This document shows, in pieces, positions 1-12,510 of a DNA stretch of 12,510 nt. A program made the position numbers and the translations under genes. Each line of letters opens with the position of its first letter. Within the stretch, counting starts at the first letter, position 1. Under the pieces are notes generated by a model. The model was not told the origin of the DNA. It was given only the letters and a program-made list of their open reading frames with translations, and ran no database searches. The DNA lies in NCBI GenBank assembly GCA_013824385.1, contig PNNU01000049.1, forward strand, positions 1 to 12,510. Direction: 5' to 3'. The stretch is from Anaerolinea sp. (GTDB taxonomy: Bacteria > Chloroflexota > Anaerolineae > Anaerolineales > Anaerolineaceae).

Positions 1-559
1 GGTTGCCTTGATCGTCGAATTTGCGTTCGTCATGTTTGTGCGGTGGGTAGGAGCTCCAATTGCCGGAGGGCGTATAAACTTCAACAACGATCAACCGGTC
101 ACACGGAAACCCCGCTGGAAGCATTTTGTTGATCTGGCGTGAGACATTGTCGCCGCCTCGCAACTCAACGATGACGTCTTCAGGTTTTACCAAAACAGCC
201 GGATAATCCTTTTCCGTTTTTGCCCATCCACAGGCGAAATCAAGTAAATCGCTGACTGCCGTTACCGTAATGGTGGTATGGCGAGAAAGATACAGCGTGG
301 TCGGCATGCCGTGAAAAACATCTTCACGCGAACCAATGCTCTCCCAATTCCCTGCCGAGGAAGTCACATCACATGTCCCTCCAAGGATGGTTAATGCGAG
401 TTCATAATCAGAAGTATCAAAAGCCCAGGATTGACCCTTTTTCAACTTGATGGCGGCAAAATGCAAATGTTCCCATTGCGCGCTTTCAGGGGTGATGGTG
501 ATATAAAATGGATGTGAAAAATCCGGTTTTACCAGAAGATGTGAATTTGTGGATGACAT
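1..559 (-). CDS. iolB: 5-deoxy-glucuronate isomerase IolB (partial, 3' end outside window)
   Basis: This enzyme isomerises 5-deoxy-D-glucuronate to 2-deoxy-5-keto-D-gluconate in cytoplasmic myo-inositol catabolism. Reading the minus strand from the ATG at 559 gives 186 residues, starting MSSTNSHLLVKPDFSHPFYI and open to the window edge. The family is usually about 270 residues, so roughly two thirds is present. The diagnostic IolB block is near residues 134-177: GGDNVSRQIN, then FPCDRLIVVEVYTPSGNWSS, then YPPHKHDE, whose histidines belong to the metal site of this cupin fold. The start is supported by an AGGAG about 7 nt upstream and by a TGATG overlap with the stop codon of the regulator gene, which implies translational coupling. 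It should be co-transcribed with that regulator and controlled by the operator at 1602-1635. The family assignment is very secure. Confidence 0.95.
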   Translation of the reverse strand, partial: MSSTNSHLLVKPDFSHPFYITITPESAQWEHLHFAAIKLKKGQSWAFDTSDYELALTILGGTCDVTSSAGNWESIGSREDVFHGMPTTLYLSRHTTITVTAVSDLLDFACGWAKTEKDYPAVLVKPEDVIVELRGGDNVSRQINKMLPAGFPCDRLIVVEVYTPSGNWSSYPPHKHDERKFDDQGN

Positions 560-1590
560 CAAGAACTCCTCTTTTGTGGTGCAGATGTCGAACCGCGGAC
601 TAAAAGGTGACCGCGCATCATATGGGTTACAGGAACAATGTTTTGAACGTTGTCAGGGTTATCAATAATGCCTAACAACATTTGGGCGGCTTCAGCCCCG
701 ATCATTCGTTTGGGTTGATCGAATGTGGTTAATGGAGGTGATGTATAGGCTGAGTATGGGATGTTATCAAACCCGGCGATGGAAATTTCATCAGGAACAT
801 TGATCCTGCTTGTATTAAGTACGCTTAATGCACCGATAGCCATGAGGTCGTTGAAACAAAAAACTGCAGTCGGTCGTGACTCCAGCTTTAATAATTCTTC
901 CATACCGTGCACGCCATCTTCAATCTCACTGGCGCCGCAATTGACGATGAATTTTTCATTTACCTGAATCCCTGCCCTTTGAATTTCAGCCCGAAACCCC
1001 AATAAACGATCTTCGTTAATCCGATCTGCGTTGGCGTTTCCCAAATAAGCAATTTCAGTATGCCCCAAATTGATCAGGTGCCGGGTTACATTACGGGCAC
1101 CGTCTACATCATCATTGGCGATGGAACACTGGTAATCTTCTGGAGATTGGTTGTTCACCACCACAATGGGCATGCCATACTTTTTGAGCAGATCCGCATG
1201 TTTGGACCCAAAAGTGACGGAACAAATAATCACACCATCCACACGATGTTCTGCAAATGCCTGGACGATGTTCTTTTCACTGTCAAAATCCAAATGTGAC
1301 GAAGCAACAAACAAACTGTATCCCGTTTTTTGAAGAATTTCTTCAATGCCTTGAAGAATTTCTCCAAAATAAGGATTGTCGATGCGGCTGACAATAACGC
1401 CAACCGCATGAGATTTGTTGGTTTTTAATCCCCTGGCGGCTGCACTTGGAAGATATCCCATCTCTTTGGCTAATTCGCATATGGCCAAAGTCGTTCTTTC
1501 AGGGATGGAATGGTTGCCATTGAGTGCCCGCGACACAGTGGTATGTGAAACACCTGCTTTTTTGGCTATATCTTTAATTGTGACTGGCAT
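559..1590 (-). CDS. LacI-family transcriptional regulator, probable repressor of the inositol operon
   Basis: The product is a 343-residue LacI/GalR-type DNA-binding regulator. Residues 3-24 form the N-terminal helix-turn-helix (TIKDIAKKAGVSHTTVSRAL). A hinge region with AAARGLKTNKS follows near residues 50-60, then a periplasmic-binding-protein-like effector domain with VGVIVSRIDNPYFGEIL and a C-terminal part containing PTAVFCFNDLMAIGAL and ISIAGFDNIP. The start at 1590 is chosen because LacI proteins begin just before the TIKDIA motif and an AAGGA lies about 8 nt upstream. An in-frame ATG further upstream would begin inside the promoter. The stop overlaps the iolB start. The promoter and a palindromic operator lie directly upstream, so it is probably autoregulated. 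The effector is inferred to be an inositol-pathway intermediate from the iolB neighbour alone; sequence does not show the ligand. Confidence 0.93.
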   Translation of the reverse strand: MPVTIKDIAKKAGVSHTTVSRALNGNHSIPERTTLAICELAKEMGYLPSAAARGLKTNKSHAVGVIVSRIDNPYFGEILQGIEEILQKTGYSLFVASSHLDFDSEKNIVQAFAEHRVDGVIICSVTFGSKHADLLKKYGMPIVVVNNQSPEDYQCSIANDDVDGARNVTRHLINLGHTEIAYLGNANADRINEDRLLGFRAEIQRAGIQVNEKFIVNCGASEIEDGVHGMEELLKLESRPTAVFCFNDLMAIGALSVLNTSRINVPDEISIAGFDNIPYSAYTSPPLTTFDQPKRMIGAEAAQMLLGIIDNPDNVQNIVPVTHMMRGHLLVRGSTSAPQKRSS

Positions 1591-1601
1591 ATGATCTATC
1601 C

Positions 1602-1635
1602 TTATATTTAACGCACACGTGTGCATTAAATATAA
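1602..1635. promoter_or_regulatory. Large palindromic LacI-type operator before lacI-iolB
   Basis: A 34-bp inverted repeat has 17-bp arms differing at one position (C1612 opposite A1625). Its centre, GCACACGTGTGC at 1613-1624, is perfect, and the centre contains the CpG typical of LacI-family operators. It lies between the -10 element and the ribosome binding site of the regulator gene, so a bound repressor would block initiation. The 14-bp core recurs at 4366-4379 beside an equivalent promoter. The palindrome and its position are seen directly; binding by the adjacent LacI protein is inferred. Confidence 0.82.
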
Positions 1636-1657
1636 CAAACAAAAATTTGAAAGTCAA
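1629..1657 (-). promoter_or_regulatory. Sigma-70-type promoter of the lacI-iolB operon
   Basis: On the minus strand a -35 TTGACT (1657-1652) and a -10 TATATT (1634-1629) are separated by exactly 17 bp. Transcription would start near 1622, inside the operator. The same elements with the same 17-bp spacing recur at 4385-4413, with closely similar spacer sequence. Confidence 0.8.
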
Positions 1658-1741: not shown

Positions 1742-4057
1742 TTATTTCAATATTGCGGGTTTCTTGCTGACTGAGATGGCCCAAACAATCGCAGCGACCA
1801 GCAGTGCCACGACCACCCAACCTGCCACTCCAAGGTTCTGATATCTCACGATCACGGGGGCGGCGATCAAACTGACGAGGTTCACCACTTTGATCATCGG
1901 GTTCAAGGCAGGCCCGGCAGCATCCTTGAGGGGATCGCCAACGGTGTCACCCACCACAGCGGCTTTGTGCCGTTCAGAACCTTTGCCGGTATTGGCAACG
2001 ATGTCTCGCATTTGGTCTTCAACACTTTTCTTCGCGTTATCCCAGGCACCGCCGGCATTTGACATGAAGACCGCCAGCAACTGTCCGCTCACGATGACAC
2101 CGGCAAGAAAACCGCCGAGAGCTTCGACCTGGAAAACCATGCCTACAACCAGCGGCGTCAACACAGCGATGGCTGCCAAAGGAAGCAATTCCTTTTGAGC
2201 CGAACCGGTGGAGATAGCCACCACTTCAGCGTAGTCAGGTTTTCTGGTGCCTTCCATGATGCCGGGGATCTTGAACTGACGACGGACTTCTTCAACGATC
2301 TTGATGGCAGCACGACTGACCGCCTTGATGTTCAAGGCGCTAAACAGCCAGGGTAATGAAGCTCCCAAAAGTAAACCGATGAAAACCTTGGTGTCAGAGA
2401 TTCTGATCGAATCCATGATATTAATCTTCATGCCGCCGGCGATGAGCGTCCGTTGAACATTGCCGACATCCGTGATATAGGATGAGAAGAGACTCACCGC
2501 CGCGATGACCGCGGATGCAATGGCGACCCCCTTGGTGATGGCCTTGGTAGTGTTGCCCACGGCGTCGAGATCAGCCATGGTCTGGCGAGCCTTGAGCGTT
2601 ACTTCATCGGTCTGTCCATGCCAAGCCATCTCACCAATGCCATTGGCATTATCCGAGATAGGGCCAAATGAATCCATGGCGACGTTGTTACCCGTTTGAC
2701 TGAGCATACCGATACCCACCATGGCGATGCCGTAGAGCACATAGATAGATTCGGACCCTGGATAGAGCAGCAAGGAGGCAAAAAATGCGACGGCAATCAC
2801 GAGCAAAGCCCACACACTTGATTCCATGCCAATGGCCAGGCCGGAGAGGATGGTTGTCGCTGCACCCGTTTTGGTGGAGTCCACGATCTCGCGAACCGGA
2901 GCATATTTGGTGGAAGTGAAGTATGAAGTTAATGGGTTGAATGCAACCGCCAGCCCAACACCGATGGCGGTTAAAACTGCCAACTTCCAATCATGAGCGT
3001 ACAAGATAGCCACAACAAACGACCAAACGATCGTATTTATGCTGGAGATTTCATATGACCTGAACATGGATTCTTCAGCATCATTGGCGCGCATGAATTT
3101 GATCGGGAACTTTTCCCAGATAGGAACGGCGAAAGTGCCCAAAATGGAACTGATAACACCAATACCGCGCACGATCAAAGGATACACAATCCATTTCAAG
3201 TTTTGATCTTGAGACCATAGCGCAAGGCCAAGGATAAGAGCTGAAACGATGGTTACTTCATAACTTTCGAAGATATCCGCGGCCATACCGGCGCAGTCCC
3301 CCACATTATCACCCACGAGGTCTGCAATCACGGCTGCGTTGCGTGGATCATCTTCAGGGATGTCTTTTTCCACTTTACCGACAAGATCGGCGCCTACATC
3401 TGCTGCCTTGGTGTAGATACCGCCGCCTACCCGCATGAATAATGCGAGCAGGGTACCGCCAAAACCAAAGCCCAGCAAAGCATCCGGAGACGCCTTGCCA
3501 AAGATGATGAAAATGACGGTGCCGCCCAAGAGACCCAGGCCGTCCGTAAGCATACCGGTGTATGCACCTGCGTAATATGCGATGGAAAGGGCTTCGTTGA
3601 ATTCACGTCTGGCGGCCGAGGCAGAGCGCACACTGGCTTGAATGGCCATGCGCATGCCGAGCTGTCCGACGATGAGTGAAAATGAAGCACCCAAAACAAA
3701 AGCAACTGCCCGTCCAATGGCAATCACCAGTTGGGTATTGAATTTTTCCGGGGGAAATTCGATCAATGCTTCGGCGCTTGGGGGAACCACATAGACAGAG
3801 AGAAATAATGCCACAAAAAGGATTCCGATGGCGGGCAAGATTGTTTTCAATTGTTTCGAAAGATAACCCTCCGCACCAACACGGATGGCATCCCACACTT
3901 CCTGCATCTTAGCGGTACCCTTGTCTTTTTTGAGAACTGATTTCCTCAAAATCCAGGCATAAAAAAGGCTGGCACAAGAAATCACCAAGACAGCAATGAT
4001 GGCGATCTGTTCAAAATTACTCAGCCCATGCCTTAAACCAAGACCTAAAATATTCAT
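1742..4057 (-). CDS. hppA: Membrane-bound proton-translocating pyrophosphatase
   Basis: This integral membrane enzyme hydrolyses cytoplasmic pyrophosphate and uses the energy to pump protons across the membrane. The 771-residue product is full length for the family and highly hydrophobic, with the many membrane segments expected. Signature motifs are present: GGGIYTKAADVGADLVGKVE at 211-230, DDPRN at 236-240, NVGDCAGMAADIFE at 251-264, NAGGAWDNAKK at 667-677 and GDTVGDPLKD at 703-712. The segment GNTTKAITKG (501-510) has lysine at 505, where K+-dependent members carry alanine. This points to the K+-independent, H+-pumping class, because known Na+-pumping members need K+. DNANGIGEM (469-477) varies from the more usual DNAGGIAEM. 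A GGAGGAG lies just before the ATG. The only good promoter seen is about 320 bp upstream and carries the same operator as lacI-iolB. Confidence 0.95.
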   Translation of the reverse strand: MNILGLGLRHGLSNFEQIAIIAVLVISCASLFYAWILRKSVLKKDKGTAKMQEVWDAIRVGAEGYLSKQLKTILPAIGILFVALFLSVYVVPPSAEALIEFPPEKFNTQLVIAIGRAVAFVLGASFSLIVGQLGMRMAIQASVRSASAARREFNEALSIAYYAGAYTGMLTDGLGLLGGTVIFIIFGKASPDALLGFGFGGTLLALFMRVGGGIYTKAADVGADLVGKVEKDIPEDDPRNAAVIADLVGDNVGDCAGMAADIFESYEVTIVSALILGLALWSQDQNLKWIVYPLIVRGIGVISSILGTFAVPIWEKFPIKFMRANDAEESMFRSYEISSINTIVWSFVVAILYAHDWKLAVLTAIGVGLAVAFNPLTSYFTSTKYAPVREIVDSTKTGAATTILSGLAIGMESSVWALLVIAVAFFASLLLYPGSESIYVLYGIAMVGIGMLSQTGNNVAMDSFGPISDNANGIGEMAWHGQTDEVTLKARQTMADLDAVGNTTKAITKGVAIASAVIAAVSLFSSYITDVGNVQRTLIAGGMKINIMDSIRISDTKVFIGLLLGASLPWLFSALNIKAVSRAAIKIVEEVRRQFKIPGIMEGTRKPDYAEVVAISTGSAQKELLPLAAIAVLTPLVVGMVFQVEALGGFLAGVIVSGQLLAVFMSNAGGAWDNAKKSVEDQMRDIVANTGKGSERHKAAVVGDTVGDPLKDAAGPALNPMIKVVNLVSLIAAPVIVRYQNLGVAGWVVVALLVAAIVWAISVSKKPAILK

Positions 4058-4365: not shown

Positions 4366-4379
4366 TGCACACGTGTGCA
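4366..4379. promoter_or_regulatory. Second LacI-type operator, before hppA
   Basis: TGCACACGTGTGCA is a perfect 14-bp palindrome with the same core as the operator in front of lacI-iolB. It follows the -10 of a minus-strand promoter by a few bases, the arrangement seen at the first site with 2 extra nt. Unlike the first site, the flanks are not palindromic. This places the minus-strand transcription unit (hppA) in the probable regulon of the LacI protein. It may also affect the divergent plus-strand promoter about 60 bp away. Confidence 0.75.
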
Positions 4380-4384
4380 TCAAC

Positions 4385-4413
4385 AATATAGCAAACAAAA
4401 AAAGGAAAGTCAA
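4385..4413 (-). promoter_or_regulatory. Minus-strand promoter reading toward hppA
   Basis: On the minus strand a -35 TTGACT (4413-4408) and a -10 TATATT (4390-4385) are spaced by 17 bp. The block GGTATTGACTTTC and the following spacer match the lacI promoter almost base for base. The predicted start near 4378 gives a leader of about 320 nt before hppA. No better promoter was seen closer to hppA, although a weak one cannot be excluded. Confidence 0.7.
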
Positions 4414-4432
4414 TACCTTTTTGCAAGATTAC

Positions 4433-4461
4433 TTGCATTTTTTGAAAAAATGTTGTAATAT
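4433..4461 (+). promoter_or_regulatory. Plus-strand promoter of the HAD-PGM-transporter operon
   Basis: TTGCAT (4433-4438) and TAATAT (4456-4461) are separated by 17 bp and point toward the first HAD gene, about 105 bp downstream. It is back to back with the minus-strand promoter, with only 19 bp between the two -35 elements. No other promoter candidate of this quality was seen before the genes to the right. Confidence 0.55.
4436..4452. promoter_or_regulatory. 17-bp palindrome within the plus-strand promoter, candidate operator
   Basis: CATTTTTT and AAAAAATG are perfect inverted 8-bp arms around a single G. The element overlaps the 3' half of the -35 and fills most of the -35/-10 spacer, an ideal position for a repressor. 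The RpiR-type regulator encoded in this operon is the obvious candidate, by inference only. Such A/T-run palindromes can also arise by chance. Confidence 0.4.
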
Positions 4462-4570
4462 CTACATTTGTAAGGACAAATTCACAATTTTTACATTTGC
4501 AACTGAATACGCCATCAATTTACGGCGATTTTTCTTCATCATCCTCTTTACAGATCGAAAGGGAAAATCC

Positions 4571-5302
4571 ATGAATCCTAATATCGAAGCCATTTTCCTG
4601 GATGTTGGCAATACGTTGCGAATCGTATTGGAAGATCCTGAATTTCAAGCGAAGGCCAAACAAGATCTGATGAAATTGGTTGGCGCAACAGAATCTGAAG
4701 AAGAATTCTATGCCGGTTTGGAAGAACGCTGGAAAGCTTATCGCAAAGCCTCAAAGAAATCGTTAAAAGAATCTTCTGAAAAAGACCTTTGGTCCATTCA
4801 CCTTTTGCCAGGGTATCCCGTTGAAAAAATCGCACCCCTGGCTGGAAAACTCACCCGCCTGTGGCGCGACCATGATGGAATCCGTGTTCCACGGCACGAT
4901 GTGAAAACCACCGTCCTCGAACTTGCCAAGCGCGGTTACAAAATCGGCATCATCGCCAATACGATCACTGAAACCGAAATACCCGATTGGATTGAATCTG
5001 ATGGATTAACCGGAATCTTTAACCCGATCATCTTGTCGTCAAAAGTGGGCTTACGTAAACCTGACCCTGAAATCTATTGGCTGGCCTCAAGAGAAATTGG
5101 CGTTGATCCTGTCAATTGCGCCTACGTTGGAGACAACCCCATCCGCGACGTCGAAGGCACTCACGCTGCCGGCTACGGCATGATGATTGTGATTGACGAG
5201 CCTGCGACGCTTGAAAAAGAGCCCCAAACCAGCGATTTTGTTATCGACTATCACATCACCGAAATTGCACAATTGCTGGATATCTTTCCAGCTCGAAAGT
5301 AA
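4571..5302 (+). CDS. HAD-superfamily hydrolase, first of a tandem pair
   Basis: The 243-residue product has a haloacid-dehalogenase fold with an alpha-helical cap between motifs I and II. Motif I is FLDVGNTL with the nucleophile Asp11. The usual second Asp (general acid/base of phosphatases) is Gly13. Motif II lies at IIANT (127-131) and has Ala129 where Ser or Thr is usual. Motif III is Lys163 in RKPDP and motif IV is GDNPIRD (187-193). The nearest type is a small-molecule phosphatase-like HAD, but the altered motifs make the reaction uncertain. The start at 4571 is set by AAAGGG 7 nt upstream and by the motif I position. The next gene starts 5 bp after the stop and encodes a clear paralogue. 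The downstream mutases suggest a phosphorylated substrate, by inference. Confidence 0.85.
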   Translation: MNPNIEAIFLDVGNTLRIVLEDPEFQAKAKQDLMKLVGATESEEEFYAGLEERWKAYRKASKKSLKESSEKDLWSIHLLPGYPVEKIAPLAGKLTRLWRDHDGIRVPRHDVKTTVLELAKRGYKIGIIANTITETEIPDWIESDGLTGIFNPIILSSKVGLRKPDPEIYWLASREIGVDPVNCAYVGDNPIRDVEGTHAAGYGMMIVIDEPATLEKEPQTSDFVIDYHITEIAQLLDIFPARK

Positions 5303-5307
5303 CCACC

Positions 5308-6066
5308 ATGGATATTCAGAAGTCCGCCAAGATCGCCGATATAAACGCCATTTTTCTGGATGTGGGTAATACGTTGCGCATCCTGCTTAAAGAGGAACCC
5401 CACCGGGCGGCTGCACGAATGGAAATCGTCAAATTGGTCGGAACCGCTCAAGACCCTGACAGTTTTGTGGCTGAACTTGACCGCCGCTATAAACTCTATC
5501 GAAAATGGGCTTTTGATAATATGGTTGAAGCATCAGAAAAAGAATTGTGGACAAAATGGCTTTTGCCAGATTATCCAACTGAAACAATCGCTTCCATTTC
5601 TGCGCAGCTCACGTTTCAATTCCGTCAATCGATGGGAAGACGTGTTGTTGCAGAAGGCGGAGCAGAAACCATCATCGAGCTTTACAAGCGCGGATACGTA
5701 TTAGGTATTATCAGCAACGTGATCACTGAACGTGAAATTCCCGAATGGCTTGAATCAGACGGATTGACTCAGTACTTCAAATCTGTCATGCTCTCTTCCG
5801 TTTTTGGAAAGCGCAAACCGGATGCCTCCATCTATCTCGAAGGAGCCAGGCAGGCTGAGGTCACCCCTGAACAATGCGTTTATGTTGGCGACAACTTTGC
5901 CCGTGATGTTGAAGGTACTCGCAATGCCGGTTTTGGTATGGTGATCATTATGCCTGATGAAGACGATAAAGATTTGGTGCTAACCCCGGAACAAACACCT
6001 GACATGGTTATTGAACGACTTACTGACCTATTAAAAATCTTTCCACCAAGAGTTTCTGTAAATTAA
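5308..6066 (+). CDS. HAD-superfamily hydrolase, second of a tandem pair
   Basis: The 252-residue product is homologous to the preceding protein along its whole length. Shared stretches include AIFLDVGNTLRI, a SEK-LW----LLP-YP cap segment, IP-W-ESDGLT and YVGDN--RDVEGT--AG. Motif I again reads DVGNT (Asp18, Gly20). Motif II here has the normal serine (IISN, Ser136), unlike its partner. Motif III is Lys170 and motif IV spans 194-200 (GDNFARD). An acidic insert (PDEDDKD, 216-222) follows motif IV. The start at 5308 is 5 bp after the upstream stop with only a weak ribosome binding site, so translation is probably coupled. The pair looks like a tandem duplication that has diverged, perhaps forming a heterodimer or acting on related substrates. 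The exact substrate is unknown. Confidence 0.85.
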   Translation: MDIQKSAKIADINAIFLDVGNTLRILLKEEPHRAAARMEIVKLVGTAQDPDSFVAELDRRYKLYRKWAFDNMVEASEKELWTKWLLPDYPTETIASISAQLTFQFRQSMGRRVVAEGGAETIIELYKRGYVLGIISNVITEREIPEWLESDGLTQYFKSVMLSSVFGKRKPDASIYLEGARQAEVTPEQCVYVGDNFARDVEGTRNAGFGMVIIMPDEDDKDLVLTPEQTPDMVIERLTDLLKIFPPRVSVN

Positions 6067-6087: not shown

Positions 6088-7674
6088 ATGTGCAATAACC
6101 AGATTAAAAACAGCGGCAAAGTTCTTGCAAATACCGTCAGAGAAATGTACTCTGAAGGTCAAACCGATTATTCGTTTGAGCCGGTTATTGCCGTTGATAA
6201 CCAGGGCAAAGCTGTTGGCAGAATTGAAGAGAATGACGCTGTCGTTTTTTGCTGCCGCAGAGGTGAACGTGAAATTCAACTCACTGAAGCGTTTACTGAA
6301 CCCAATTTCAATAAATTTCAGAAGATTACATTTACAAACCTTCCTTTTGTAATTTTGACTTTATATCACGACAAGTTTATAGACCTTCCTGTTGCCTTTG
6401 CACCAGTCCAAATGAAAGACACTTTGGGAGAGGTAGTAAGTAAAGCCGGTCTATCTCAAGTGCGTATTTCTGAATCTGAAAAATTTGCTCATGTAACTTT
6501 TTTCCTCAACGGCGGAAACAATAAACCATTCTCCAACGAAAAAGACATTCGTGTTCCTTCCCCCAAAGGAATCCCTTTCGACAAAGTTCCTGAACTTAAA
6601 CTGGATGAAGTCGCTGAAAAAGTCATAGAAAGCATCATAAATAAAGAAGACTTAATCGTCACCAACTTTGCCAACGGGGATGTAATCGGTCATACTGCAA
6701 ATCGCGAAGCAAAAATAAAATGCGCCGAAGTTATTGATCGCAACCTGGCAAAAGTGGTCGCCGCTGCCCGTGATGCAGGTTATGTCACTCTAATTACTGC
6801 AGACCATGGCAATCTTGAAGAACTATTTAATGAAGATGGTACTCCCAACGGGGCACATACCACCAACCTTGTGGATTTCATATTGATCGATCCCATAGCA
6901 CCTTCCAGGGTTCAATTGAAAAATGGAAAACTTGCTGACGTCGCACCCACAATTTTAAACGCATTAGACCTTCCACAGCCTTCAGCCATGACAGGGTCCT
7001 GCCTGACAGTTGACCATCACTTTGGATCAAATCGAAAAGTGCTCTTAATCATTCTGGACGGCTGGGGTATCGGTAAGCAGGATGAAAGTAATCCAATTTT
7101 CCTTGCTAACACGCCTGCCTGGGATCAACTCATAGCTTCAGAAGCCACCAGTACCCTCGAGGCATCCGGTGAGGCTGTTGGTTTGAAAGCTGGAAAAGCC
7201 GGCAATTCAGAAGCCGGGCACATGAATCTCGGCGGCGGTCGTGTTGTTTTGCAGGATGATGTGCGTTTGGATTCAGCCATGAAAGATGGCAGCTTTTATG
7301 AAAATACGATTCTTCTTCAAGCTATTGATCATGCCATCAATAATAAAAGCAAGCTACATTTAATTGGTTTGCTTACTTTAAAGAGCTCACACGGATCAAT
7401 CGATTATCCATTGGCAATGCTAAAAATGGCAAAAGAACGCGGCTTAACCGATGTGTTTCTTCATATGATATTCGATGGAAGAAGCACAGAACCCGGCAGC
7501 GCCCCTACCCTCCTTGAAATGTTGGATGAGAAGATCAATGCAATTGGTGTTGGTCAAATTGTCTCAGGCATTGGACGAGGGATTGCACTCGATCGTGACG
7601 GAAATTATTCAAAGACAGAAAAAGCCTACAACGCCTTTGTTTTTGGAAAGGGAAGACCCAGTTTCATCAAATAA
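6088..7674 (+). CDS. Circularly permuted cofactor-independent phosphoglycerate mutase (GpmI-type)
   Basis: GpmI enzymes interconvert 3- and 2-phosphoglycerate through a phosphoserine intermediate on a two-metal site. All parts are here in rotated order. Residues 11-306 match the second half of normal GpmI: Arg58/Arg61, Lys132 in SEKFAHVTFF, Asp198/His202 in NFANGDVIGH, Asp239/His240 in TADHGN, His257 in AHTTN, and the usual C-terminal MTG at 301-303. A 10-residue linker follows. Residues 317-522 match the normal first half: KVLLIILDGWG (Asp324), the nucleophile Ser374 in GNSEAGHMN, His435, DGR (463-465), Arg497 and Arg503, ending at EKAYNAFVFGKG. Spacings between these residues fit standard GpmI numbering. 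The new termini lie in a loop of the transferase domain. Asp after DGR is Ser466, so specificity may differ. GGAG lies 5 nt before the ATG. The order is seen directly; activity is inferred. Confidence 0.88.
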   Translation: MCNNQIKNSGKVLANTVREMYSEGQTDYSFEPVIAVDNQGKAVGRIEENDAVVFCCRRGEREIQLTEAFTEPNFNKFQKITFTNLPFVILTLYHDKFIDLPVAFAPVQMKDTLGEVVSKAGLSQVRISESEKFAHVTFFLNGGNNKPFSNEKDIRVPSPKGIPFDKVPELKLDEVAEKVIESIINKEDLIVTNFANGDVIGHTANREAKIKCAEVIDRNLAKVVAAARDAGYVTLITADHGNLEELFNEDGTPNGAHTTNLVDFILIDPIAPSRVQLKNGKLADVAPTILNALDLPQPSAMTGSCLTVDHHFGSNRKVLLIILDGWGIGKQDESNPIFLANTPAWDQLIASEATSTLEASGEAVGLKAGKAGNSEAGHMNLGGGRVVLQDDVRLDSAMKDGSFYENTILLQAIDHAINNKSKLHLIGLLTLKSSHGSIDYPLAMLKMAKERGLTDVFLHMIFDGRSTEPGSAPTLLEMLDEKINAIGVGQIVSGIGRGIALDRDGNYSKTEKAYNAFVFGKGRPSFIK

Positions 7675-7695: not shown

Positions 7696-8901
7696 ATGGA
7701 TTTAGACTTTTTACGTCGAATGACAATTCCAGCAAAAACCAAGATCGTCATGCTTATTCTTGACGGTCTTGGAGGATTACCCATGCAGCCAGGTGGATTA
7801 ACCGAATTGGAAACTGCCAAGACTCCAAACCTCGATCATCTTGCCTCACTCTCCGCGCTTGGGCTGACCATTCCTGCTGCGTATGGAATCACCCCGGGCA
7901 GCGGTCCCGGCCATCTGGGAATTTTCGGATACGATCCCATCGAACACGAAATCGGTCGGGGTGCCCTCGAGGCGTTAGGTGTGGATTTTGACCTGCGCCC
8001 TGAAGATATCGCCGCCAGAGGGAACTTCTGCAGTCTGGACGAAAATGGTGTCCTCATTGATCGACGTGCAGGTAGATTGGCAACTGAAGAGGCGTTAAAA
8101 CTGGCAAAAATTCTCAACGCGATTAAGATGGATAACGTCGAGATCTTTGTTGTACCGGTAAAAGAACATCGTTTTGCCTTCGTGATCAGGGGGGCAGGTT
8201 TGGGTGCCAATGTAAGCGAAACTGATCCTCAAAAAAACGGTATCAACCCTATGCTGGCAACAGGCCTGGACCAATCTTCCATTCGAACTGCTGAAATCAT
8301 TAATGAATTCGTTGCAAAAGCCACAAAAGCTCTTGCAGGTGAAAAATTTGCCAACGGAATATTATTGCGCGGTTTTGATAAGCTTCCTGTTCTGCCAAAA
8401 TATCAAGATATATTCAAACTGAATCCTGCTGCGATTGCCGTCAACGGTATGTATAAAGGTGTATCCCGCCTCGTAGGCATGGAAATTATCCAATTTCGGG
8501 GCAAATCCATTGCTGATGAATTTGCTGCACTTGAAGACAATTGGCAGAATTTTGATTTCTTTTATATTCACATCAAACAAACAGATACCGCAGGGGAAGA
8601 TGGCGATTTCGACCGTAAGGTTCGCGTGATTGAAGAAGTTGACGCATTAATCCCCCGGTTGACAGCACTTGCACCAGACGTGATTATCGTAAGCGGTGAT
8701 CATTCATCCCCGGCCGCATTGAAGTTCCATTCCTGGCACCCTGTACCCACCATGATTTTTTCAAATTACGTTCGTCCCGATGGGATTACAAGTTTTGGTG
8801 AAAGAAATTGTTTAAAAGGCAGCCTGGGAATTCTCCCTGCAAAAGAAGTGATGCCAATCGCATTGGCAAACGCATTTCGACTTGCCAAATATGGCGCTTA
8901 A
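7696..8901 (+). CDS. apgM: Archaeal-type cofactor-independent phosphoglycerate mutase (ApgM family)
   Basis: This 401-residue protein belongs to the ApgM branch of the alkaline phosphatase superfamily and has the usual length of about 400. It should interconvert 3- and 2-phosphoglycerate in the cytoplasm using metal ions. Visible landmarks are MLILDGLGG (Asp23), the nucleophile segment GITPGSGPGHLGIFGYDP (Ser69), IHIKQTDTAGEDGDF (Asp297), VSGDHSSPA (Asp335, His336) and FHSWHPVP (His345, His348). Residue 301 is Glu where archaeal members as I remember them have His in the AGHDG motif. The start at 7696 follows GAGG closely; Met9 is an alternative. It lies 21 nt after the permuted GpmI-type gene, so two different mutase families sit side by side. 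A relative acting as a phosphatase on another small phosphate ester cannot be excluded. Confidence 0.9.
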   Translation: MDLDFLRRMTIPAKTKIVMLILDGLGGLPMQPGGLTELETAKTPNLDHLASLSALGLTIPAAYGITPGSGPGHLGIFGYDPIEHEIGRGALEALGVDFDLRPEDIAARGNFCSLDENGVLIDRRAGRLATEEALKLAKILNAIKMDNVEIFVVPVKEHRFAFVIRGAGLGANVSETDPQKNGINPMLATGLDQSSIRTAEIINEFVAKATKALAGEKFANGILLRGFDKLPVLPKYQDIFKLNPAAIAVNGMYKGVSRLVGMEIIQFRGKSIADEFAALEDNWQNFDFFYIHIKQTDTAGEDGDFDRKVRVIEEVDALIPRLTALAPDVIIVSGDHSSPAALKFHSWHPVPTMIFSNYVRPDGITSFGERNCLKGSLGILPAKEVMPIALANAFRLAKYGA

Positions 8902-8939
8902 CGGTATTGGTTAACGAAAAACCAAATTGGAGAAATAAA

Positions 8940-9824
8940 ATGACAAATGAAGAGGCTCAACCAAAATTGGATTTCAATCAACAAGTCAGTAATAATTTTG
9001 ATGGTCTGACAAAAAGCGAAAAACAAATCGCCAATTTCTTGCGTAATAATCAGAACGACGCTGCTTTCCTCTCAGCAGGTGAAATTGCTGAATCCCTCGA
9101 CATCAGTGAAGCGACCGTCGTTCGATTTGCGCGCACGTTGGGTTATCCCTCGTATCCGGCTCTACGAGCCTCTTTTCAAGATGCTTTCAAAACCAGACTC
9201 ACACACTCCTCAAGGATCCTTTCCCGGCTCAAAGAAGTGCCAGAAAAAGGGGACATCTTTGAACGCTTAACCATGATGGAAATCGATTACTTAACCCAGG
9301 CTTTGGAATCTGTAGATCGCCAGGAATTCGATAAAGCAGTCAAAATAACCATGGAAAACAACCGATTCTTTGTTTTCGGTACCGGCCCCTCAATTACACT
9401 GGTCGATTTAATGCATATACGGTTGAGCCGCTTTGGGAAGGCAGTCATTCCGTTAAAAAGCTCAGGTCGCGAAGTACTTGATTCCCTACTGACCCTTTCA
9501 TCTGATGACGTTCTCTATGTAATTTGTTTCTATAACGTAAACCCCACATTAAAACTCGTGCTCGATTATGCAAACGAAATTGGTTGCAAAATAATATTGA
9601 TCACCGACACATTAGAAACCCTTATTGGTCACAAAGCCGAAGTGGTCCTGGCTGCCAAACGGGGCCCAGTATCAGAATTTCATTCCATGGTTGTGCCTAT
9701 GACCATTATCAATGCTTTATTACTTTCTGTTGCAGATCAACAACCAGAAACGATATTGCCCGCATTGGATAAGTTGGATTCTTTACGTGAACGCTTGAAG
9801 CTCTTTAATGCCGAAGAAATCTGA
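8940..9824 (+). CDS. RpiR/MurR-family transcriptional regulator with SIS domain
   Basis: The 294-residue product has an N-terminal RpiR helix-turn-helix domain (about residues 20-85, with LTKSEKQIANFL, LSAGEIAESLDISEATVVRFARTLGY) and a C-terminal SIS domain (about 130-265, starting FFVFGTGPS). SIS domains in this family bind phosphorylated sugars or related phosphate esters, so the protein probably senses the substrate handled by the operon. The start at 8940 is supported by GGAG with 7-nt spacing and leaves 38 nt after apgM. The open frame continues upstream into apgM, but that extension is not family-like. A plausible site of action is the palindrome at 4436-4452 in the operon promoter, which is inference. 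The specific ligand is not evident. Confidence 0.92.
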   Translation: MTNEEAQPKLDFNQQVSNNFDGLTKSEKQIANFLRNNQNDAAFLSAGEIAESLDISEATVVRFARTLGYPSYPALRASFQDAFKTRLTHSSRILSRLKEVPEKGDIFERLTMMEIDYLTQALESVDRQEFDKAVKITMENNRFFVFGTGPSITLVDLMHIRLSRFGKAVIPLKSSGREVLDSLLTLSSDDVLYVICFYNVNPTLKLVLDYANEIGCKIILITDTLETLIGHKAEVVLAAKRGPVSEFHSMVVPMTIINALLLSVADQQPETILPALDKLDSLRERLKLFNAEEI

Positions 9825-9933: not shown

Positions 9934-11769
9934 ATGGCTGCTAGTACGTTCGACCAACAGACAAAAGCAGAAAAATTCCAGGCCTATCTGCGTAGATTTA
10001 CAAGATGGATTTCAAGGCCGCAAGTAATCTTGTCACTATTTATGCTTGTAGTGATGTTCTATATGGTCCTTATTCCGCTATATCGCATGCTCGCGACAAC
10101 GATCACAGTATCAGATAGCGATTTGCGAATATTAAAGGATGCAAACATAGGTGACATCACCTGGTATCACTGGCTAAGAATGTTAACCAGCAAGATAGCC
10201 GTGATAATGACGTATGAACCTCTATTGCATTCACTTACCATTTCTTTGGGGGCAACTCTATTGGCATTGGTAATTGGTGGTTTGATGGCATGGTTGGTTG
10301 TACGTACGGATGTTCCTGGCAAAGGTATCATTAATACTTTGGCTACCGTTCCATACATCATGCCTTCCTGGACCATCGCCATGGCATGGAAGGTTTTGTT
10401 TAAAAATGCAAAGTCGGGCGGAACGCCCGGTTTATTGGAGTTTATTACCAATCAACCAACCCCTGACTGGCTTGCATATGGACCGGTCCCCATCATAGTG
10501 AGCAGTGCCCTGCATTACTATACCTTTTTCTTTCTGTTTGTGGCGGCAGCATTACTCTCCATTGACAGCTCCCTAGAAGAAGCAGGTGAATTATCAGGCG
10601 CAGGCCGATGGCGCATCATGCGCAAGATCACTTTTCCATTGGTCATACCTGCGATTGCCTCTGGTTTTATCATGACCTTCTCTAAAACCATGGGGACTTT
10701 TGGTGGACCAAATGTGCTGGGTGTGCCTGTTCAGTACTACACCTTGTCTACGATGTTGAGATCCAATACCGGCATTGGCAATTATGGAGATGGATTTGTC
10801 TTGGCCATCGTGCTGATTTTATTTGCGATGGTTACAGTCATGATTAACCAAAAACTGGTGGGTACTCGAAAAAGTTACGAAACCATCGGGGGTAGGGGTT
10901 TCATGGCTCAAAAAATGAAGCTGCGAAACTTTAAAGGCTTGTTTACGGCTATCATAGTGGTCTTCCAATTCATCATTGCGGTATTACCACTCACCTTGTT
11001 GATCTGGAGTACCTTCATGCTCCACACTGGTGATTATAGTGCAAGTAATTTCACCCTGGCACACTGGATTGGAAAAGGCGACATTACCATCAACAGTGGT
11101 GAACCAGGTGTTCTCCTCAATCCAAGAATCTATTTGGGAGCGTGGAACTCCATCAAGCTTTCATTATTCACCGCTTTGTTCACAGCTTTCTTTGGTGTCA
11201 TTCTTGGGTATGCCATTGTAAAAGGCAGGGGAACTCGCCTTTCAAAATTAGTTGAACAGCTCGCCTTCATCCCCTATGTAATTCCAGGTATTGCTTTTGG
11301 TGCGGTTTACATTTCCATGTTTACCAAACCAGTTGGTCCAATACCCGCTCTATATGGCACCTTTGCCCTGTTGGTGGTTGTTTCCGTTGCCAAACACATT
11401 CCTTATTCCTCGCGCAGTGGGGTTTCGGCCATGCTGCAAGTGAGTAAAGAGCTTGAAGAAGCTGCGGCAATTGCCGGCGCATCACCCTGGCAACGGTTTA
11501 AAAGGATCATCTTCCCATTGACCAGCACAGGTTTTGTCTCTGGGTTCTTGATGACCTTCATCACCACGATGAGAGAGTTATCTCTGATTATCTTGCTGGT
11601 AACGCCTACAACGGCAGTGTTGGCAAGTATGACCATGCGGTACATCGAAAACGGAAATGAGCAGCAAGCAAATGCTGTCATTATCGTTCTGATCGTTTTG
11701 GTCTTGATCGGCAACTTCATTATTAGCCGCTTCAAAGGCGGAAGCCTGAAAAAAGGCCTGGGAATGTAA
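9934..11769 (+). CDS. Fused two-domain ABC transporter permease (Fe3+/sugar-phosphate AfuB/FbpB-like)
   Basis: The 611-residue protein is an inner-membrane permease with two binding-protein-dependent transport domains fused in one chain, about 12 membrane segments in all. Each half carries the cytoplasmic EAA loop that contacts the ATPase: EEAGELSGAGRWRIMRKITF (215-234) and EEAAAIAGASPWQRFKRIIF (508-527). Fused permeases of this shape occur in iron(III), thiamine, aminoethylphosphonate and hexose-phosphate (AfuABC) importers. The neighbouring SIS-domain regulator, mutases and HAD enzymes favour an organophosphate substrate here, which is inference. The ATG at 9934 is chosen because an ATG 4 nt earlier reaches a stop after four codons; AGGAG sits 7 nt before 9934. 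The ATPase gene follows after 12 nt. No solute-binding protein gene is present between the regulator and this gene. Confidence 0.9.
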   Translation: MAASTFDQQTKAEKFQAYLRRFTRWISRPQVILSLFMLVVMFYMVLIPLYRMLATTITVSDSDLRILKDANIGDITWYHWLRMLTSKIAVIMTYEPLLHSLTISLGATLLALVIGGLMAWLVVRTDVPGKGIINTLATVPYIMPSWTIAMAWKVLFKNAKSGGTPGLLEFITNQPTPDWLAYGPVPIIVSSALHYYTFFFLFVAAALLSIDSSLEEAGELSGAGRWRIMRKITFPLVIPAIASGFIMTFSKTMGTFGGPNVLGVPVQYYTLSTMLRSNTGIGNYGDGFVLAIVLILFAMVTVMINQKLVGTRKSYETIGGRGFMAQKMKLRNFKGLFTAIIVVFQFIIAVLPLTLLIWSTFMLHTGDYSASNFTLAHWIGKGDITINSGEPGVLLNPRIYLGAWNSIKLSLFTALFTAFFGVILGYAIVKGRGTRLSKLVEQLAFIPYVIPGIAFGAVYISMFTKPVGPIPALYGTFALLVVVSVAKHIPYSSRSGVSAMLQVSKELEEAAAIAGASPWQRFKRIIFPLTSTGFVSGFLMTFITTMRELSLIILLVTPTTAVLASMTMRYIENGNEQQANAVIIVLIVLVLIGNFIISRFKGGSLKKGLGM

Positions 11770-11781
11770 GGAGAGAACATC

Positions 11782-12510
11782 ATGGAAACTACAATCACTG
11801 TAAAAAACCTCACAAAGAAATTTGGCAATGTGGTAGCAGTCAACAATGTCAGCGTTACGGTTGAACCTGGCACTTTCCTGACCTTGCTTGGCCCTTCCGG
11901 CTGCGGCAAGACAACCCTTCTGCGATGTATTTCTGGCCTGGAAGATCCCGACGAGGGTGAGATCTATATCGGCGACAAGCTGGTTTATTCACACATTAAG
12001 GGCATATCCATGGCTCCTGGCAAGCGTGATCTGGGGTTGGTATTTCAGAATTACGCTTTATGGCCGCACATGAATGTATACAAAAATCTGGCCTTTGCAC
12101 TTGAAATCCAAAAACTCTCCAAAGAAGAAATGGACAGGCGAATCAAAGAATCGCTCTCTGAAGTTCAGATGTCAGGGTATGAAGACCGTTATCCCCGTGA
12201 AATGAGCGGAGGCCAACAGCAGCGCATTGCTCTTGCTCGTATGCTGGCTTATCGACCACACGTCTTTTTAATGGATGAGCCACTTTCTAACCTTGATGCC
12301 CGCCTCCGCATGGATATGCGCACCGAACTCAAACGCCTTCACCATGTATCCGGAGCAACAACTGTTTATGTAACCCATGATCAGGTGGAAGCCATGACCA
12401 TGTCTACAAATATCGCCATCATGAAGGAAGGCGTTATTCAACAATTAGACAGTCCAGATAAGGTTTATCACTTCCCAGCTACTTTGTTTGTAGCCGATTT
12501 CATTGGCAAC
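11782..12510 (+). CDS. ABC transporter ATP-binding protein (partial, 3' end outside window)
   Basis: This is the nucleotide-binding subunit that powers the adjacent permease. The frame gives 243 residues and remains open at the window edge; MalK/PotA/FbpC-type subunits are usually about 340-370 residues, so the C-terminal regulatory domain is mostly missing from view. Motifs in order are Walker A GPSGCGKT (37-44), Q-loop VFQNYALWPHM (Gln89), signature MSGGQQQR (141-148), Walker B VFLMDEP (161-167), D-loop SNLDA and H-loop VTHD (His199). The start is METTITVKNL with an AGGAG about 9 nt upstream, 12 nt after the permease stop, so the two are certainly co-transcribed. Substrate specificity cannot be read from this subunit. 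Confidence 0.95.
   Translation, partial: METTITVKNLTKKFGNVVAVNNVSVTVEPGTFLTLLGPSGCGKTTLLRCISGLEDPDEGEIYIGDKLVYSHIKGISMAPGKRDLGLVFQNYALWPHMNVYKNLAFALEIQKLSKEEMDRRIKESLSEVQMSGYEDRYPREMSGGQQQRIALARMLAYRPHVFLMDEPLSNLDARLRMDMRTELKRLHHVSGATTVYVTHDQVEAMTMSTNIAIMKEGVIQQLDSPDKVYHFPATLFVADFIGN

Follow-up and report, generated by a model that had tools for sequence, protein, structure and literature searches.

A natural circular permutant of GpmI-type phosphoglycerate mutase in an Anaerolineaceae contig and its probable family

Gene and evidence for circular permutation

The window, by which we mean the whole 12,510-nucleotide stretch of Anaerolinea sp. DNA analysed here (contig PNNU01000049.1), contains at 6088..7674 on the forward strand an open reading frame with an ATG start that encodes a protein of 528 residues. 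Judged by its alignments, this product is a natural circular permutant of the phosphoglycerate mutase GpmI, which we call type A; the assignment draws on matches to Protein Data Bank (PDB) sequences, to profiles and in BLASTP. Along the same strand lie the equivalent of the GpmI C-terminal half (6109..7011, residues 8-308, about 212-510 of PDB 1EJJ, from phmmer and structure match), a linker between the former C- and N-termini (7012..7029, residues 309-314, between the ends that phmmer aligned to 1EJJ), and the equivalent of the N-terminal half (7030..7653, residues 315-522, 1EJJ 3-210, from phmmer, with the transferase part matched by structure as well). Hinge mapping places a putative phosphatase domain at residues 107-388 (6406..7251, +), and the codon at 7483..7485 (+) encodes Ser466, the equivalent of Asp154 of canonical GpmI according to the 1EJJ alignment and the residue table.

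Searched with phmmer against PDB sequences, the product aligns through residues 315-522 to 1EJJ 3-210 without a gap (154.7 bits) and through residues 17-308 to 1EJJ 220-510 (202.8 bits); the canonical linear order, with the N-terminal half first, is thus reversed. Six canonical GpmI proteins, our choice among those fetched, each gave two high-scoring segment pairs (HSPs) against the product in BLASTP. When the same six were written twice in a row, an additional single colinear HSP appeared in all six, for example one over residues 32-522 with 42% identity and 386 bits, as against 213 and 184 bits with the single copy. The original prediction, made from the sequence alone, had proposed a permutation of the GpmI type with new termini in the transferase domain, and the swapped 1EJJ stretches and the colinear HSPs bear this out. 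The new termini fall near GpmI residue 211-219 in both phmmer and BLASTP, inside the transferase domain by this alignment, and the old termini are tied by a short linker. A length of about 10 residues had been given for that linker, which holds only against other structures (up to ~10 residues); against 1EJJ it is 6. The distance from the end of the MTGxxL motif to DGWG is 16-17 residues in 106 of 120 type A proteins, these being the ones that our script could measure.

Pfam reports PF01676 and PF06415 in the product, each in two stretches. The curated cut-off of NCBIfam TIGR01307 is exceeded across the two swapped stretches (490.1 vs 330.65 bits), while the product stays far under the cut-off of the related model NF003897 (397.8 vs 862 bits). 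Permuted proteins in general pass the equivalog cut-off of TIGR01307 through two swapped stretches and do not pass NF003897; the name phosphoglycerate mutase in most of their source records is plausibly due to profile scores that sum the two swapped halves. Searches of an open-access library, judged by title and start of abstract, gave no description of a natural permutation of this enzyme, a coverage outside which most subscription papers fall.

Predicted structure and domain nesting

In predicted models, residues 9-308 and 390-528 of the permuted protein match the structure of GpmI, which points to a GpmI fold across most of the chain. With the full model, Foldseek and VIA-align aligned no more than the initial part of the chain to GpmI, as would be expected of sequential aligners; each half was matched by itself, using two different models. 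The second half folded alone gave a poor model (predicted local distance difference test score, pLDDT, of 57.4), whose transferase part alone could be matched. The expectation that the chain would close into one GpmI-like structure is therefore upheld in so far as both halves match GpmI, with the limit that they do so piece by piece and that residues 315-389 are unmatched.

Hinge 1 presumably lies near 1EJJ 76-77. The position of hinge 2 was transferred, through the metal ligands and the 1EJJ alignment, from Ala334 of the Caenorhabditis elegans enzyme as given in PMC5382265. With these limits the nesting of the two domains would be turned inside out: a continuous phosphatase domain would be flanked on either side by a piece of the transferase domain, and both hinges between the domains would be retained.

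Active site

Fifteen positions were mapped through 1EJJ, comprising metal, nucleophile and substrate residues, with Ser62 counted in both lists. The metal ligands and the serine nucleophile (D12, S62, D403, H407, D444, H445, H462) are all present in the window protein (7/7) and do not vary across the 129 rows of type A and the 128 of type B, a second permuted subfamily described below. Nine residues contact 2- or 3-phosphoglycerate (2-PG, 3-PG) in the B. stearothermophilus enzyme according to PMC3886921 (S62, H123, R153, D154, R185, R191, R261, R264, K336). The window protein keeps eight of these nine and has Ser466 in place of D154. Across the 257 rows of both subfamilies, 14 of the 15 positions do not vary, save for gaps at two positions each in the short sequences P0183 and P0186.

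Every active-site residue named in the original prediction was found in place, namely Arg58, Arg61, Lys132, Asp198, His202, Asp239, His240 and His257 in the first half and Asp324, Ser374, His435, DGR 463-465, Arg497 and Arg503 in the second. Its statement that nothing is missing was wrong, since the aspartate of the DGRD motif (Asp154 in 1EJJ numbering) is the serine at 466. This position is Ser in 129/129 type A rows and in the divergent permuted protein of genome G776; in type B it is Gly in 127 of 128 rows and Cys in one. Of the 54 canonical rows, 52 have Asp here. The remaining two, which come from single copies at loci L146 and L148 of Patescibacteria, lack His123, Arg153 and Arg185 as well, and these copies may be pseudoenzymes. 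Type A carries further fixed differences near the pocket, for example K432 for Gly, S434 for Val, C56 for Asn and E60 for Asp.

These residues are consistent with retention of the two-metal, serine-phosphate chemistry of GpmI, in which Ser374 would be the nucleophile. A phosphorylated hydroxy-acid would be bound through the conserved Arg/Lys/His set, and the change of Asp154 to Ser would alter the handling of part of the substrate.

Extent and phylogeny of the permuted family

The search with the type A query scored 8,000 candidates, of which the top 120 were listed, counting the window protein itself; the best local alignment of each spans 95-100% of the query, and 118 show the exact motif order, one motif not being found in each of the other two. 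The best 120 homologues listed for the type B query cover 84-100% of it, again with the exact order in 118, and their source names include Anaerolineae, Aminicenantes and Armatimonadetes. Beyond the window protein, 239 listed homologues of both subfamilies align to the permuted queries over 84-100%. The search for homologues with the same order, which the original prediction had proposed as a check, thus revealed no one-off but a family of two or more subfamilies.

The genome scan yielded ten loci, eight of them permuted and two (L009, L010) encoding canonical GpmI. The closest locus, L001 from Anaerolineaceae UBA8523, is likewise permuted, and each of the ten genes of the window has a relative there, with the gene order unchanged; of the close relatives, neither L001 nor L002 shows an unpermuted gene at this position. 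In genome G261 the type A permuted gene lies on a contig of 5.35 Mb. With a profile built from 59 type A proteins, 28 of 396 genomes from the class of G001 gave one full-length colinear hit among the matches listed, at most three candidates being scored per genome for most genomes; ten of these hits score 888-999 bits (type A) and 18 score 459-538 bits (type B). The same draw contains at least 67 other genomes with half-length hits by hand count, a few of them at contig ends and unassignable. A full-length colinear hit was obtained in 6/299 genomes of Lachnospiraceae (the family of G003), and G776 (phylum of G009, Melghiribacillus) has a divergent A-like permuted gene together with a canonical GpmI.

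In a tree of 102 rows, one branch splits 48 permuted from 54 canonical sequences with a Shimodaira-Hasegawa-like approximate likelihood ratio (SH-aLRT) support of 100. Without the junction columns and two long rows (L147_0, L149) the same split separates 48 from 52 rows with support 99, and in this trimmed tree types A and B each lie on one side of a branch. The trees were built by a quick method with the root unplaced; the 54 canonical rows represent 51 different sequences from few phyla, and L115 and L124 (no usable frame) as well as L065 and the second frames of L110 and L111 (outside the length limits) were left out. A single separating branch is what one origin predicts, and a single permutation event most likely founded the family. 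The mechanism proposed earlier, tandem duplication followed by fusion, is a plausible origin of the permuted gene. Canonical GpmI genes stand adjacent on one strand in the Patescibacteria genomes G719, G738, G737 and G722 (loci L146-L148), which shows only that such duplications happen.

Other phosphoglycerate mutases of the hosts

We searched 40 genomes with a permuted gene for ApgM, canonical GpmI and GpmA above cut-off, and found them in 27, 10 and 3 genomes, respectively, 37 genomes having at least one. The exceptions are G370, with none of the three families, G064, with a split ApgM hit of 286 bits, and G261, with a partial ApgM hit of 189 bits. The latter hit (C1:4307261-4307770, 1-174 of 403), the only one to ApgM there, lies on the 5.35 Mb contig mentioned above, and the ApgM of this genome is possibly broken. 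In the window itself an ApgM gene stands directly beside the permuted gene. The idea of the permuted enzyme as sole mutase of its hosts does not hold for the 37 genomes with another one, and the protein is unlikely to be the principal phosphoglycerate mutase of the cell.

In the 28 genomes of the G001 class with a permuted gene, for which all candidates were scored, no canonical GpmI rose above cut-off, so that the permuted and canonical forms did not co-occur in these genomes; both forms were found together in ten genomes outside that class, nine Lachnospiraceae and G776. At three type B loci (L095, L097 and L099, from G183, G015 and G110), the permuted gene is directly followed by a histidine-phosphatase gene with weak similarity to GpmA (25-28 bits to TIGR01258).

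Genomic neighbourhood

Upstream of the permuted gene in the window, two HAD-family hydrolases are encoded on the forward strand, the first at 4571..5302 with a start chosen by us inside ORF 4373-5302, the second at 5308..6066, 21 bases before the permuted gene. Divergently upstream of these genes lies a membrane cation-translocating pyrophosphatase (1742-4057, −); its strand also carries a LacI-family regulator (559..1638, −) and an IolB-like 5-deoxy-glucuronate isomerase that is cut by the window end (2..562, −; 194.6 bits for a cut-off of 205, the whole relative in L001 reaching 335.7). Downstream follow the ApgM-type mutase (7696..8901, +; above the NF003160 and TIGR00306 cut-offs), an RpiR-family regulator (8940..9824, +; start chosen by us inside ORF 8808-9824), a fused ABC permease (9934..11769, +; nearest NCBIfam model PhnU2, 156.8 bits for a cut-off of 593.25) and an ABC transporter ATPase that runs off the window (11782..12510, +). 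The hydrolases, the pyrophosphatase, both regulators and the ATPase were named from profile matches.

Neighbouring genes were counted in 27 loci (18 type A, 9 type B) of 5.6 to 19.5 kb, L007 being excluded as incomplete; the counts are lower bounds since the loci differ in length, and some of the clustered frames are antisense. One HAD family occurs in 17/18 type A loci, in 14 of them immediately upstream on the same strand, and in 0/9 type B loci. Type A loci further contain LacI regulators (12), ABC ATPases (9), solute-binding proteins (8), PRK/uridine-kinase-like proteins (8), fused permeases (7) and ApgM (5), while three of the nine type B loci share citrate synthase-like and ATP-grasp (sucC-like) genes. 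Motif I of the HAD proteins, in the window and at the type A loci, has the form DxGxT; 37 of 54 clustered frames fit the search pattern, with Gly in 37/37, and the other 17 do not fit it. Phosphatases usually have a second Asp where these sequences have Gly.

The five Lachnospiraceae loci L003-L006 and L008 continue with IolG, type II GAPDH, PGK, a LarAH6-type malate racemase, IolE and IolB-like genes, four of them also with an IolD-like gene before the locus ends and L004 with a transketolase in two genes; family names were assigned on L003 or L004 and extended to the others by clustering. An inositol-catabolism cluster with type II GAPDH, a PGK-like protein and a LarAH6-type racemase looks as if it had its own branch of lower glycolysis. 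In the window and in L001, IolB and LacI lie on the opposite strand.

In G776 (L132) the gene run consists of GntR, cyclic 2,3-diphosphoglycerate synthetase and an ABC importer, with the permuted gene last. The synthetase homologue (L132 3916-5256) matches the solved structure 9SXB with E 9.7e-128. As a query it found no match in 396 genomes of the G001 class at E 1e-20, and among 12 other permuted-gene genomes at 1e-10 it matched one, G776 itself, which served as positive control. A general link of the permuted family to this synthetase was rejected, as it is seen at one locus only. The abstract of PMC10690619 states that the product of the synthetase occurs only in hyperthermophilic archaeal methanogens; the G776 homologue sits in a bacterial operon despite that statement.

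Functional interpretation

We give a probability of roughly 0.7 to the reading that the permuted proteins form a sister family of GpmI with a single origin, whose members would carry out accessory phosphoryl transfer on a phosphoglycerate-like acid and would not be the housekeeping mutase. Type A would act as an accessory phosphomutase (or phosphatase) on such an acid in the setting of an operon for import and carbohydrate catabolism with HAD hydrolases, and the glycolytic step would be supplied instead by ApgM, canonical GpmI or GpmA. The shared order, taken with the one changed active-site position, suggests a different job from that of the ordinary enzyme. For the fuller proposal, that one permutation of GpmI founded a separate and so far unrecognised family of at least two subfamilies which lost the Asp154 contact and turned to a different phosphorylated acid, we would put the odds at even.

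Several points weigh against the accessory-enzyme reading. The eight retained substrate contacts leave ordinary 2-PG/3-PG mutase activity compatible with the data, and the enzyme role is argued from sequence and neighbourhood rather than from biochemistry. The quick, unrooted trees, with canonical rows from few phyla, give a separating branch without proof of a clade, and the structure match is piecemeal, with the poor half model and no match of its own for residues 315-389. G370, G064 and G261, three of the 40 genomes, lack a second mutase above cut-off. The five inositol loci of Lachnospiraceae, being closely related, do not count as independent.

Among the alternatives, an ordinary phosphoglycerate mutase in permuted form, interconverting 2-PG and 3-PG and perhaps serving as an isozyme for growth on inositol or an imported substrate, survives best, and we regard it as possible though doubtful. 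It fits the 14 of 15 unchanged active-site positions (apart from the gaps in P0183 and P0186), the TIGR01307 score, the GAPDH- and PGK-like genes in one Lachnospiraceae locus group and the three genomes without a second mutase above cut-off. The loss of the Asp154 equivalent in every permuted row, the fixed type A differences near the pocket (K432, S434, C56, E60) and the additional mutase in 37 of 40 genomes, which in the window adjoins the gene, all speak against it. Without the carboxylate of Asp154 there might be room for a second phosphate, or re-phosphorylation might be lost, and the protein would then be a phosphatase or an enzyme acting on 2,3-bisphosphoglycerate or a related bisphosphate. 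Such a role agrees with Ser or Gly throughout at this position and with the synthetase gene in the run of the divergent A-like G776 gene, but that link rests on one locus and the remaining substrate contacts are unchanged; we hold it to be unlikely. A non-catalytic or regulatory paralogue would suit a protein accessory to another mutase in 37/40 genomes, but the seven metal and nucleophile positions, invariant in 257 rows, are unlike those of a decaying enzyme and make this very improbable. An assembly error, a possibility raised by the original prediction, is rejected with near certainty, since 239 further protein clusters among those listed, drawn from several sources, show the permuted order, as do other assemblies with shared neighbours and, in one case, a gene on the 5.35 Mb contig.

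A core glycolytic enzyme family here includes a natural circular permutation common enough for comparative study, and one that appears to swap which domain nests in which. With it one can ask how far an enzyme of two domains that closes about hinges accommodates new termini, and whether permutation and one lost substrate contact accompanied a new substrate. Automated phosphoglycerate mutase names may be wrong for these proteins, which bears on metabolic models of Anaerolineae and gut Lachnospiraceae.

Comparison with known systems

Phosphopentomutase has a different second domain, and its structure 4N7T shows 22% identity over the compared residues. ApgM (TIGR00306, NF003160) shares weak profile similarity in the metalloenzyme part and is encoded next to the permuted gene; it is about 400 residues long with PF10143, a domain absent from the Pfam matches of the permuted protein at E 0.001, and the window protein (P0001) stays below the TIGR00306 cut-off (34.1 vs 320 bits). 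Closest is GpmI (TIGR01307; PDB 1EJJ, 1O98), with which the permuted protein has in common PF01676 and PF06415, two metal sites, the serine nucleophile, eight of nine substrate contacts and, in predicted models, the structural match over residues 9-308 and 390-528. Unlike GpmI, it has its halves reversed, Ser (type A) or Gly (type B, with one Cys) at the Asp154 equivalent, a probably continuous phosphatase domain nested in the transferase domain, and hosts that in 37 of 40 genomes have another mutase above cut-off. It is best read as part of a putative sister family of GpmI, permuted and divided into two or more subfamilies, and is filed as such because its linear order and its set of substrate contacts depart from those of GpmI, though its residues and fold are GpmI-like.
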